DNA from: an uncultured Gallionellaceae bacterium
GTDB lineage: Bacteria; Pseudomonadota; Gammaproteobacteria; Burkholderiales; Gallionellaceae
DNA: 35,089 nt
Assembly (NCBI GenBank): GCA_903913145.1
Contig: CAIWKC010000171.1
Span: 1-35,089, forward strand
Reading direction: 5' to 3'
Shown here: positions 4,460 to 8,465 of the stretch, in pieces
Numbering within the stretch: position 1 is the stretch's first letter
How the letters are laid out: the number at the start of each line of letters is the position of its first letter
Program-made: the position numbers and the translations under genes
Notes under the pieces: model-generated
The model's input: only the letters and a program-made list of their open reading frames with translations
What the model was told of the DNA's origin: nothing
Databases searched by the model: none

Positions 4460-5953
4460 ATGTTATTACCAGAAAATAAATCAAGCTATTCCAATTTGCC
4501 AAATCAGGGACAACTATCACCTCATTTAACTTCAGGCACACACCGTACTCATTCTTTGCAAAAGGAATCATCATCACTGTCGGAAGAAAAGAAATTTAAT
4601 GAGCTACGGATGGAAAATGCTGAATTGAGACGAGTGCAGGTTGAGCTTGAGAAAACTTTAGACCATTTCATTCAAATTTATGACAGTGCTCCGGTTGGAT
4701 ACTTTACGCTGAGCAGTAAAGGCATAATCGATGCAGTCAATTTAACAGGCGCTTCTTTTCTCGGATTAGAACGCGACAAATTGCTCAGGAAATTTCTTTC
4801 ACGTTTTATTTCTCCTGAAGATAAAAATAACTGGCAACAGTTCTTTGCCGACGCTCAGACTGGCAGCGGTAAACTTGATCGAGAGTTAACTTTAGTTAAA
4901 AACGACGGCTCAAAATTTTATGCGCATTTGGAATCCAATCGCGCGATAAATGATATGAATGAACCGGAATTTCGTATTGTGTTAACTGATATTTCAAAAA
5001 GAAAGCACGCTGAATATGCATTGCGTGAACAGGAAGTATTTTTTAACATGATCGCGGAGAACTCAGACGAGTTTGTAGCTGTATTGGACTTGAAGGGGAG
5101 AAGACTCTACAACAGCCAGTCATACGGTAAACTATTTGGAAATGTAGATACTCTGATCGGAACGGACTCCTTCGCCGAGATTCATCCTGAGGATAGGAAA
5201 TATCTGCAGCAGGTATTCAACGAGACTGTGCAAACAGGCCACGGCATGCAGGCGGACTTTCGCTTTGTATTACCCGATGGCAATATTCGGCATATGGAAT
5301 CGCGTGGAACGCTGGTGAGAAACAGCAATGGTATAGCGTTAAGAGTAGTTGTAGTTTCACGTGATATAACCGAGCGAATTCTGGCAGCGGAGAAGATCAG
5401 TAGCTTGGCCTTATATGACGCGCTCACTGGAAAATCGAATCGTCGTTTGTTGCACGACCGGCTTGAACATGTCATGACGGAAAATAAACGCAGAGGAAAT
5501 TTCGGTGCATTGCTTTTCATTGATCTTGATAACTTCAGGATTTTCAATGAACAATTTGGCAAAGCAATCGGAGATTCATTGTTGGTTGAAGTGGCTAGCC
5601 GTCTCAGTAATTGTGTGCGTGAGGTTGACACGGTATCGCGATTGGATGGAGATGAATTCGTGGTAATGCTTGGCGAGTTAAATGCAGATAAAGTCGCTTC
5701 ATCTAATCAGGCAGGTGTGGTGGCTGAAAAAATCCACAATGTTTTAGCAGAGCCCTATATTTTGACTGTCGGGAATGAAGGCAGTGAGATTACCGGCAAG
5801 AAGTATTACATTACTGCGAGCATTGGCGTTTTTTTATTTAGTCATACCGATAGTGGAGCCGGCGATATTCTAAAACGTGCGGATATGGCGATGTTTCAGG
5901 CTAAAAACAAAGGAAAAAATTTGATTTGTTTTTTTGATTCAAATTCAGACTAA
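4460..5953 (+). CDS. PAS-PAS-GGDEF sensor protein (putative diguanylate cyclase with variant motif)
   Basis: Two PAS segments (YDSAPVGYFTLSSKGIIDAVN; FFNMIAENSDEFVAVLDLKG) then a GGDEF-type domain (ALYDALTGKSNRRLLHDRL...FIDLDNFRIFNEQFGKAIGDSLL...VSRLDGDEFVVMLGEL). Confidence 0.88.
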   Translation: MLLPENKSSYSNLPNQGQLSPHLTSGTHRTHSLQKESSSLSEEKKFNELRMENAELRRVQVELEKTLDHFIQIYDSAPVGYFTLSSKGIIDAVNLTGASFLGLERDKLLRKFLSRFISPEDKNNWQQFFADAQTGSGKLDRELTLVKNDGSKFYAHLESNRAINDMNEPEFRIVLTDISKRKHAEYALREQEVFFNMIAENSDEFVAVLDLKGRRLYNSQSYGKLFGNVDTLIGTDSFAEIHPEDRKYLQQVFNETVQTGHGMQADFRFVLPDGNIRHMESRGTLVRNSNGIALRVVVVSRDITERILAAEKISSLALYDALTGKSNRRLLHDRLEHVMTENKRRGNFGALLFIDLDNFRIFNEQFGKAIGDSLLVEVASRLSNCVREVDTVSRLDGDEFVVMLGELNADKVASSNQAGVVAEKIHNVLAEPYILTVGNEGSEITGKKYYITASIGVFLFSHTDSGAGDILKRADMAMFQAKNKGKNLICFFDSNSD

Positions 5954-6003: not shown

Positions 6004-6999
6004 TCAAGCAGATATTGTCTTGGAAGCGCTTCGAGGAACAAGCACAAATGGGTCGGCGTAAATGTTTCCAGTGGAAGCACCAGCCAAGAAAGCGAGTTTC
6101 TTGCCGGTTGACACCATTTTAGGATGACCACACAGAAAAACACGCCACCCGGAAAGATCCTGATTTTCTTTGAATGCAACCTCTTGAGCTCTTCCGGCAG
6201 CAAAACCCTGTGGAACAGTTTTTCCGGAAATGCAGGGCGTGTAGTTGAAATGGTCAAATTGTAATGCCAGCGATTTTAATTCCTCGGATAGGTAGACTAA
6301 GTCGGGCGAGTTGCTGCCGTGATACAACTTAATCGTGCCACTGTGTCCTTGGAAAAGCGCGTCACGAACGATGCCATATAACGGGGCTAGCCCTGTTCCG
6401 GTCGCAATGAGCAAGAGTTTCTGGTCGGGCATATCCGGTACGTAAAAACAATCACCGCTCGCGTCTGATATATCGACATTGTCGCCAACTTTCAGATCAT
6501 GATGAACCCAATGACTGACTAAACCATCGGGGAGTTTTCTGATGTGAAACTGAAGTTGATCATCAATTCCAGGCACGCTTGCCAAAGAATAAGCTCGGGA
6601 TGTGGCATTGTCCTTGAACAAGTTGATGAATTGACCGGCTTTATAATTAAATTTGGTATTGAGCGCTAATTTGAGGCGAACAATTTGAGTGTTCAAAAAA
6701 TCTATCTCAGCAACGGTAGCAGAAAGTTTTCCTAATCCGGTCATTGGAAGTCTGATCTGCACGTCTTCCTGCGGGTGGAAAGAACAGGCTAGAAAATAAT
6801 TTTGCGCTACGAGTGTGTTTTTTAAACCGGGTTGTGCAGTTGCGGGAATATTGCCTGAAATTGCCTGCATCAAACAAGTTTGACAAATTCCAGCATGACA
6901 CGAAGATGGAATAGACACGCCATGGGCAGTCAAACAGTCGAGCACAGATTCTTGCTCCTTGCACTGGTATGACTGCCCCTGGTAAGTGATACATGGCAT
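6004..6999 (-). CDS. Two-component-type oxidoreductase: N-terminal [2Fe-2S] ferredoxin domain plus FAD/NAD(P)H ferredoxin-reductase domain
   Basis: Plant-type ferredoxin cluster CHAGICQTC (C-x4-C-x2-C) with a downstream Cys, FAD motif RAYSLASVPG, nucleotide motif ATGTGLAPLYGIVRDAL, C-terminal VFLCGHPKMV. Confidence 0.88.
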   Translation of the reverse strand: MPCITYQGQSYQCKEQESVLDCLTAHGVSIPSSCHAGICQTCLMQAISGNIPATAQPGLKNTLVAQNYFLACSFHPQEDVQIRLPMTGLGKLSATVAEIDFLNTQIVRLKLALNTKFNYKAGQFINLFKDNATSRAYSLASVPGIDDQLQFHIRKLPDGLVSHWVHHDLKVGDNVDISDASGDCFYVPDMPDQKLLLIATGTGLAPLYGIVRDALFQGHSGTIKLYHGSNSPDLVYLSEELKSLALQFDHFNYTPCISGKTVPQGFAAGRAQEVAFKENQDLSGWRVFLCGHPKMVSTGKKLAFLAGASTGNIYADPFVLVPRSASKTISA

Positions 7000-7013
7000 G
7001 TCGTGTTACTTGA

Positions 7014-7379
7014 CTATTTTCCTAAAACATCATTACGCGTACTTTCGGCAACAGCAGCGGCTTGACCGATCAAATCTGCCGGCACATTGAGTTCTTTCAG
7101 CGTTGCCCCCAGATGTTCCATTACAGCATCAAAATGAGAATCATTGAGGCCATTTTTAACCAAATGCGCATGGCCTTTTCTCATGTCTTCGCCACTGTAC
7201 TTATTTGGTCCACCAAAAGCAACGGTCAAAAATGCTTTTTGCTTTGCCGCCTGCTTCGCCATGTCAACACCATCAAAAAAATGCTTTATGCGATCATCTT
7301 TTAATACTTTACGGTAGAAAATATCAACTGCAGCATTAACTGCACCCTCACCACCAATTTTTTCGTATAAGCTACTCAT
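7014..7379 (-). CDS. Group 1 truncated hemoglobin (trHbN-like)
   Basis: MSSLYEKIGGEGAVNAAVDIFYRKVLKDDRIKHFFDGVDMAKQAAKQKAFLTVAFGGPNKYSGEDMRKGHAHLVKNGLNDSHFD is a classic trHb1 sequence. The start at 7379 has an upstream SD (AGGGGGAAAAAATATG) and is preferred over the listed 7412. Confidence 0.92.
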   Translation of the reverse strand: MSSLYEKIGGEGAVNAAVDIFYRKVLKDDRIKHFFDGVDMAKQAAKQKAFLTVAFGGPNKYSGEDMRKGHAHLVKNGLNDSHFDAVMEHLGATLKELNVPADLIGQAAAVAESTRNDVLGK

Positions 7380-7478
7380 ATTTTTTCCCCCTAATATTCT
7401 GTTTAACTTCAATTTTTAATCATACATTCAATTAACCAATAACAAATTTGCGTTACATTCAAAATCGAACAAACATTT

Positions 7479-7501
7479 AAAATGTACTGCAAATGCATCT
7501 T
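7479..7501. promoter_or_regulatory. Putative NsrR (NO-sensing repressor) binding site upstream of the truncated hemoglobin
   Basis: AAAATGTACTGCAAATGCATCTT against the consensus AAGATGYATTTNAAATRCATCTT (as recalled): 19 of 22 informative positions, right half-site 11/11. It lies about 100 bp upstream of the divergent (minus-strand) trHb start. Confidence 0.62.
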
Positions 7502-7901
7502 ATTTGAAGAATCGATTTGATGTCAAGTCGAAAGATTAATCAGACTCAAGGGGGCGTTTCAAAAATAAACTCTACATGCCATGATGATGTTGAAGGGGAA
7601 ATTTTTGATCGGGACAATGTTTTTTGATAACAAGCGGGCCGCGAAACAGAATCAGGCAAAAATAGAATGTTTAAAGGGGGCCGCACAATTTAGCAGCCAT
7701 AAATAATTGCAGAGGTGCATTTTTTTAAAAAGACTAAGGGAAGTTAAGGGTACACTCACAATAGATTCTAAATAGCCTTTTGCGGCAAAATTTAAAGGAT
7801 GATTGTTTTATTGAGAAGTTTAATATTTTGGTAATTAACGTAGTTGGCAGAATAAAATTGACTATTTGGAAAATCACCACAAAACATATGGAGAAATATT
7901 A

Positions 7902-8465
7902 ATGAGTAAAAATCAATTCAGAATTATTTTGACAGTTGCAGTTCTTGGTATGGCAAAGCTTAGTCTGGCAGCCGGAATGGCAAGCTATGTTGGTATCGGG
8001 TTAGGAAATACTTCAGCCGAAGTGAACGGCACTTCAGGTCAAGTCACTGCATCCGGTGCAGGATACCGCTTGGTTGCGGGTAGTCAGATTGCGCAGACGT
8101 TGTCTGTAGAAACAGAATATGTTGACCTTGGGGAATTCGCAGGCTCAACCACCAATGTTGCGGCCAAAGCGCTGGGTGTTTCTGGTGTGCTCACAATGCC
8201 TGTAACAGGTATGCTTTCAATTTATGGCAAAGCAGGACTTGCGAGAGTCGAAACCACAGTTGCAACCCATGCGGGCGCAACTGCCACCACTCCTTTATCA
8301 GATGCGGTAGTCGGGATGACGCTTGGCTACGGCATTCAAATTGACGTTGCGCCAAATGCTAGCATTCGCTTGGCATGGGATCGATATAAAAGTTCGCCGC
8401 TGGCAGGGCCGTTTTCAGACAGGATTAATATGAATAGTTCAGGATTATTCATATTAAGGTTTTAG
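7902..8465 (+). CDS. Outer membrane beta-barrel protein (OmpA/OmpW-like porin family, 8-stranded type)
   Basis: MSKNQFRIILTVAVLGMAKLSLAAG signal peptide, alternating beta-strand pattern, terminal SSGLFILRF ending in Phe. Start at 7902 has an SD-like GGAGA. Confidence 0.8.
   Translation: MSKNQFRIILTVAVLGMAKLSLAAGMASYVGIGLGNTSAEVNGTSGQVTASGAGYRLVAGSQIAQTLSVETEYVDLGEFAGSTTNVAAKALGVSGVLTMPVTGMLSIYGKAGLARVETTVATHAGATATTPLSDAVVGMTLGYGIQIDVAPNASIRLAWDRYKSSPLAGPFSDRINMNSSGLFILRF

Follow-up and report, generated by a model that had tools for sequence, protein, structure and literature searches.

A truncated haemoglobin and [2Fe-2S]-FAD reductase gene pair of Gallionellaceae as a predicted two-chain NO dioxygenase

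A gene pair in the genome of an uncultured Gallionellaceae bacterium probably forms one NO-induced transcription unit for a two-chain NO dioxygenase that works like the flavohaemoglobin Hmp. The pair lies on the minus strand of the stretch of DNA analysed here (the window; 35,089 nt), where the gene for a truncated haemoglobin of group 1 (trHb1, of the cyanoglobin type) precedes that for a [2Fe-2S]-FAD-NAD(P)H reductase. It resembles Hmp in its predicted action and stands outside the Hmp family. The original prediction had proposed that globin and reductase form a dedicated NO-detoxification pair, and its conservation, an NsrR-type box, a neighbouring nsrR-like gene in relatives, the absence of Hmp, and natural fusions of the two proteins all argue for this proposal.

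The two genes and their products

The globin gene (7014..7379, minus strand) encodes 121 aa and starts at an ATG at 7379 (minus), upstream of which a Shine-Dalgarno-like AGGGGG was read directly at 7387..7392 (minus). The gene for the reductase, the proposed electron donor of the globin (6004..6999, minus strand; 331 aa), follows after a spacer of exactly 14 bp, TCAAGTAACACGAC (7000..7013, minus strand; direct reading). These coordinates agree with the earlier claim that a trHb1 and a ferredoxin reductase lie 14 bp apart on the same strand. A separate promoter for the reductase is improbable because the spacer is too short, and its length is similar in all 41 Gallionellaceae pairs. The pair is flanked by a GGDEF/PAS gene (4460-5953; Pfam) and an OmpA-like gene (7866-8465; Pfam match run on 7899-8465), both encoded on the plus strand, which leaves room in the transcription unit for the globin and the reductase only. 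We infer that the two genes would be cotranscribed. A single terminator-like match was located inside the globin gene and was discarded, as this number is expected by chance.

The globin matched Bac_globin in Pfam (PF01152, E 7e-20), and its closest PDB match was Synechocystis cyanoglobin (1s69, E 2e-41). Numbered after Synechocystis GlbN, its haem pocket contains Tyr22 (B10), Gln43 (E7), Lys46 (E10), Gln47 (E11), and His70 (F8); the helix names follow GlbN, in which His46 (E10) serves as a bis-histidyl ligand. The lysine at E10, where cyanobacterial GlbN has a histidine, excludes bis-histidyl capping via this position. Of the 115 distinct paired globins compared, 114 have the complete Y/Q/K/Q/H set and all have His70. 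Family, length (~120 aa), HisF8, TyrB10, and polar residues at E7 and E11 together place the protein among the group 1 truncated haemoglobins (trHbN/GlbN), while in NCBIfam it reached no equivalog.

In the reductase, Pfam identified a Fer2 [2Fe-2S] domain at aa 7-76 (6772..6981, minus strand; PF00111, E 6.6e-11), an FAD-binding domain at aa 102-186 (FAD_binding_6; 6442..6696, minus strand; PF00970, E 5e-9), and an NAD(P)-binding domain at aa 197-297 (NAD_binding_1; 6109..6411, minus strand; PF00175, E 7e-13). The protein is therefore of the [2Fe-2S]-FAD-NAD(P)H type, as had been predicted. Its closest PDB match was a [2Fe-2S]/FAD P450 reductase (5ogx, E 4e-38), and its best solved relatives are [2Fe-2S]-FAD reductases from P450 and dioxygenase systems. 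Across 15 aligned orthologues, with identities to the window reductase down to 42%, the cluster cysteines (Cys34/39/42/72), the flavin motif (R135-Y137-S138), and the nucleotide motif (G201-x-G203-L204 and C290-G291) were invariant. Given that key residues are kept in both globin and reductase, both proteins appear to be functional. PRK05713, BenC, and MmoC were rejected as identities of the reductase because its scores fell far short of the curated cut-offs; the top NCBIfam match, PRK05713, reached 189 bits against a cut-off of 338, and no equivalog cut-off was reached.

Conservation of the pair and its fused and variant forms

Among 150 Gallionellaceae genomes, a reductase orthologue (E < 1e-70) was found in 41 and a strong trHb1 in 41, and the two sets of genomes were identical. 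All 41 pairs are adjacent, co-oriented, and in the same order, with 9-51 nt between matches. The chance of a 41/41 co-occurrence is ~1e-37 when relatedness is ignored, with the caveat that counts of related genomes are phylogenetically non-independent. The pairing of globin and reductase is beyond chance. At the class level, where at least 280 bits were required for the reductase, it adjoined a globin in 38 of 40 genomes, and one of the two exceptions ends at a contig edge. The best 80 named loci, which were retrieved with an alignment of paired reductases and are thus biased toward orthologues, were all paired (within 200 bp in 79 of them, at 200 bp in the remaining one) and include Gallionella, Sideroxydans, Sulfuriferula, Methylobacter, Methylococcus, and Methylomonas. 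The pair also occurs in Methylococcaceae and Sulfuriferula, and the gene-neighbourhood survey suggested alongside the original prediction finds it conserved in relatives within the family, across the class, and among the named loci.

In a set of 18 loci from another class of the phylum, the reductase is preceded by one, two, or three trHb1 genes in 17, and an nsrR-like gene is present in 14; Mariprofundus trHbN copy numbers (PMC3770913) suggest that this class is the Zetaproteobacteria. One family of that class (L240-L258) has two to three successive trHb1 genes and then the reductase, mostly with a divergent nsrR-like gene. The pair was also found on a Methylocystis rosea plasmid, and the reductase on two further Methylocystis plasmids. 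On the mobilizable M. rosea plasmid (NZ_CP044330.1; L259:3483-5951), a sigma-factor gene precedes the trHb1-reductase pair.

Six natural fusions carry the same parts in one chain of ~510-550 aa, ordered Fer2-FAD-NAD-truncated globin and with a C-terminal CxxC...CxxC stretch. Four are from Gallionellaceae (L036:3599-5248, L037:3172-4737, L038:2880-4445, and L039:1828-3423) and two come from other members of the class (L219:3165-4757 and L239:1492-3027). Bac_globin scored above the Pfam cut-off in all three fusions scanned, and TyrB10, LysE10, GlnE11, and the proximal His were kept in all five that were aligned. Compared with Hmp, the order of reductase and globin is reversed. At the level of sequence, the fusions provide good evidence that this type of reductase and a truncated globin cooperate. 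The fused proteins may be sensors instead of detoxifiers. An ABC-ATPase/phosphatase-like protein was observed near L036-L039 and L219 and an MglA/Ras-like GTPase near most of them, with neighbours noted for these loci and their Pfam names obtained from L219 only. A literature search returned no paper on a one-chain reductase-trHb fusion or its GTPase neighbours, and this fusion is the least familiar part of the system.

Adjacency and co-regulation could be all that the two genes share, with the reductase serving an oxygenase, Fe-S repair, or a ferredoxin while other cell reductases reduce the globin. A few reductase paralogues do adjoin other redox partners (molybdenum-type oxidoreductase genes, hemerythrin). 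Twelve class genomes have the globin and no reductase, so the dependence is one-sided and the globin can act alone or with another donor. The reductase without a globin, however, was almost never seen (41/41 paired in the family, 38/40 in the class), and the fusions join the two in a single chain. We regard mere adjacency as very improbable and favor a dedicated pair.

Several other arrangements were observed in the course of the survey. Tandem trHb1-trHb1 proteins in one frame of ~270-330 aa occur away from the reductase (L042, L044:2510-3445, L224:3015-3830, and L225-L228), and the one in L044 begins with a hydrophobic stretch. One reductase paralogue lies near a hemerythrin gene (L221:2553-4337), and the two may be a different type of O2-carrier and donor pair. 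Another lies behind genes that read as molybdenum-type oxidoreductase-like, with ferredoxin and membrane subunits (L220:144-4221).

Predicted control by NO and proposed function

A predicted NsrR-type operator, AAGATGCATTTGCAGTACATTTT, is located upstream of the globin at 7479..7501 (minus strand) and agrees at 12 of 14 positions with the NsrR consensus gATGyAT-N5-ATrCATc published by Rodionov et al. (PMC1274295). It was the only match in the 35-kb window at ≤3 mismatches, where shuffles expect 0. It was also the sole 0-mismatch site in the 3.6-Mb genome, which was scanned with one 23-bp pattern at ≤2 mismatches, a search that degenerate sites could escape. A consensus scan placed a sigma-70-like promoter, TTGACA-18-TAAGAT (10/12), at 7497..7526 (minus strand), with the −10-like TAAGAT at 7497-7502 and a perfect TTGACA 18 nt away; the count of promoter-like matches in this stretch was no higher than in shuffles. 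The box starts within TAAGAT, and overlap with the −10 is the position expected of a repressor operator.

The box recurs in relatives, where at least 12 of 14 positions matched in 63% of the upstream regions of paired globins, versus 0.7% of dinucleotide shuffles and 7% for unpaired trHb1. A divergent nsrR-like gene adjoins the globin in 61 of the 80 named loci, and a same-strand one in none. The closest homologues of the nsrR-like regulator occur in 33 family genomes, every one of which is a pair genome. NF008240 NsrR was the best model for the NsrR-like proteins scored, at 134-151 bits, which is under the cut-off of 182. The upstream NsrR-like box of the original prediction is thus corroborated, and the conservation in relatives of both box and nsrR-like neighbour points to shared rather than unrelated regulation of the two genes. 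In the genome of the window, the nsrR-like gene is situated away from the pair (C51; L238:2391-3429). From a reading of the sequence, it adjoins an apparent cyclic-nucleotide-binding protein gene.

In the proposed mechanism, NsrR would sit on the box over the −10 in the resting state and keep the promoter off, and NO would destroy or nitrosylate the iron-sulphur cluster of NsrR, upon which the pair would be expressed. Hydride from NAD(P)H would be passed to the reductase FAD and onward, as single electrons, via the reductase's own [2Fe-2S] cluster to the ferric haem of trHb1. O2 would then bind to ferrous trHb1, held by TyrB10 and GlnE7/E11, and NO would be converted to nitrate with return of the haem to the ferric state. 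Powered by the same electron route, the pair could instead serve mainly to reduce NO to N2O under anaerobic conditions, or to reduce peroxynitrite or hydroxylamine. Such a role would share the identical induction logic; Hmp itself reduces NO slowly, the [2Fe-2S] centre permits one-electron delivery, and the Bradyrhizobium haemoglobin Bjgb has been proposed to act both ways (PMC4724949). The TyrB10/Gln pocket, however, is typical of O2-stabilising trHb1, and Hmp-type anaerobic NO reduction proceeds at ~1% of the dioxygenase rate (PMC4724949). A mainly reductive role is therefore quite unlikely, and NO dioxygenation is the reading that we prefer.

Hmp was expected to be absent, and none was found in the window's genome (93% complete); 40 of the 41 pair genomes likewise have none. 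Seven of the 150 family genomes, all from one genus, encode a true Hmp (an eighth copy was cut short), and only one of these has the pair. A match to the Hmp model in the window's genome (G000) covered the reductase part only (model positions 149-396) and was rejected as Hmp. NnrS was found in the same genome, and the argument that the pair is its sole NO defence was consequently dropped.

Emerson et al. (2013) viewed the trHbN of Sideroxydans ES-1 as more probably part of a terminal oxidase, as NO reductases are also present (PMC3770913). By this logic, trHb1 would deliver or buffer O2 for a terminal oxidase in microaerobic respiration, with the reductase acting as a metHb reductase that keeps trHb1 ferrous. 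The organisms are indeed microaerophilic iron oxidisers (PMC3770913), the window's genome encodes a cbb3 oxidase, trHb1 binds O2, and unpaired trHb1 copies are known. In contrast, the NsrR box on the promoter and the adjoining divergent nsrR-like gene suggest that the signal is NO and not O2; the unit contains no oxidase gene, and methanotrophs have the pair too, as does Legionella according to published work. Many bacteria have both Hmp and NO reductases, so the presence of NO reductases is no argument against an aerobic NO dioxygenase. We consider O2 delivery an unlikely function, and NO dioxygenation remains our preferred interpretation of the pair.

Significance and comparison with known systems

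The idea of a two-piece NO detoxifier is not new and was predicted in 2005 for Legionella (PMC1274295). Rodionov et al. (2005) described the glbN-lpg2536 operon, coding for a cyanoglobin and a ferredoxin reductase, as the sole NsrR target of Legionella pneumophila, which is without hmp, and suggested Hmp-like NO oxidation (PMC1274295). Gardner (2012) restates this proposal and notes that electron donors are known for few globins (PMC3820574). New here are the breadth of the pair, the residue-level evidence, the fused forms, and the evidence against a terminal-oxidase role of Sideroxydans trHbN (PMC3770913), a view against which the NsrR box, the nsrR-like neighbour, and the reductase jointly argue. 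With the putative donor gene nearly always beside its trHb1, including in culturable methanotrophs, the question becomes directly testable. The results also suggest that aerobic NO removal is relevant to microaerophilic iron oxidisers and methanotrophs. On a broader and more tentative reading, which is possible yet somewhat doubtful when taken as a whole, Proteobacteria would have a widespread second NO dioxygenase architecture, made up of trHb1 and its dedicated [2Fe-2S]-FAD reductase, which takes the place of Hmp in methanotrophs and iron oxidisers, together with a rarer one-chain version turned gas or redox sensor.

Hmp and the window pair both combine a globin with an FAD/NAD reductase, and NsrR control and NO detoxification are predicted here for the pair as for Hmp. 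Hmp, however, is one chain with a 3/3 globin domain and no [2Fe-2S] domain, whereas the pair comprises two ORFs, separated by a stop and 14 bp, with a truncated 2/2 globin (PF01152) and an extra N-terminal [2Fe-2S] domain in the reductase. The [2Fe-2S]-FAD oxygenase reductases (BenC, MmoC, 5ogx, and PRK05713) share the Fer2-FAD-NAD order and the cluster cysteines, but the partner of BenC/MmoC-type reductases is an oxygenase, while the proposed partner of the window reductase is a globin. Legionella glbN-lpg2536, by its published description, is likewise a trHb1-ferredoxin reductase bicistron with an NsrR site in an organism without hmp. It belongs to another order of Proteobacteria, and Legionella is said to be without nnrS, which the window's genome has. 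The raphidophyte NR2-2/2HbN, as cited in PMC3820574, unites a truncated globin and an FNR-type flavin reductase in one chain, built in that account on a eukaryotic nitrate reductase scaffold without the bacterial Fer2 domain. The nearest experimentally supported two-gene system is Bjgb-Flp of Bradyrhizobium, in which a haemoglobin and a flavoprotein are encoded by separate genes, as in the window, and lie in one operon, and in which genetic evidence indicates that both are required for NO-donor tolerance (PMC4724949). It differs from the window pair in its 3/3 single-domain globin and in its control by NasS-NasT instead of NsrR, and Flp has also been proposed to feed nitrate reductase (PMC4724949).
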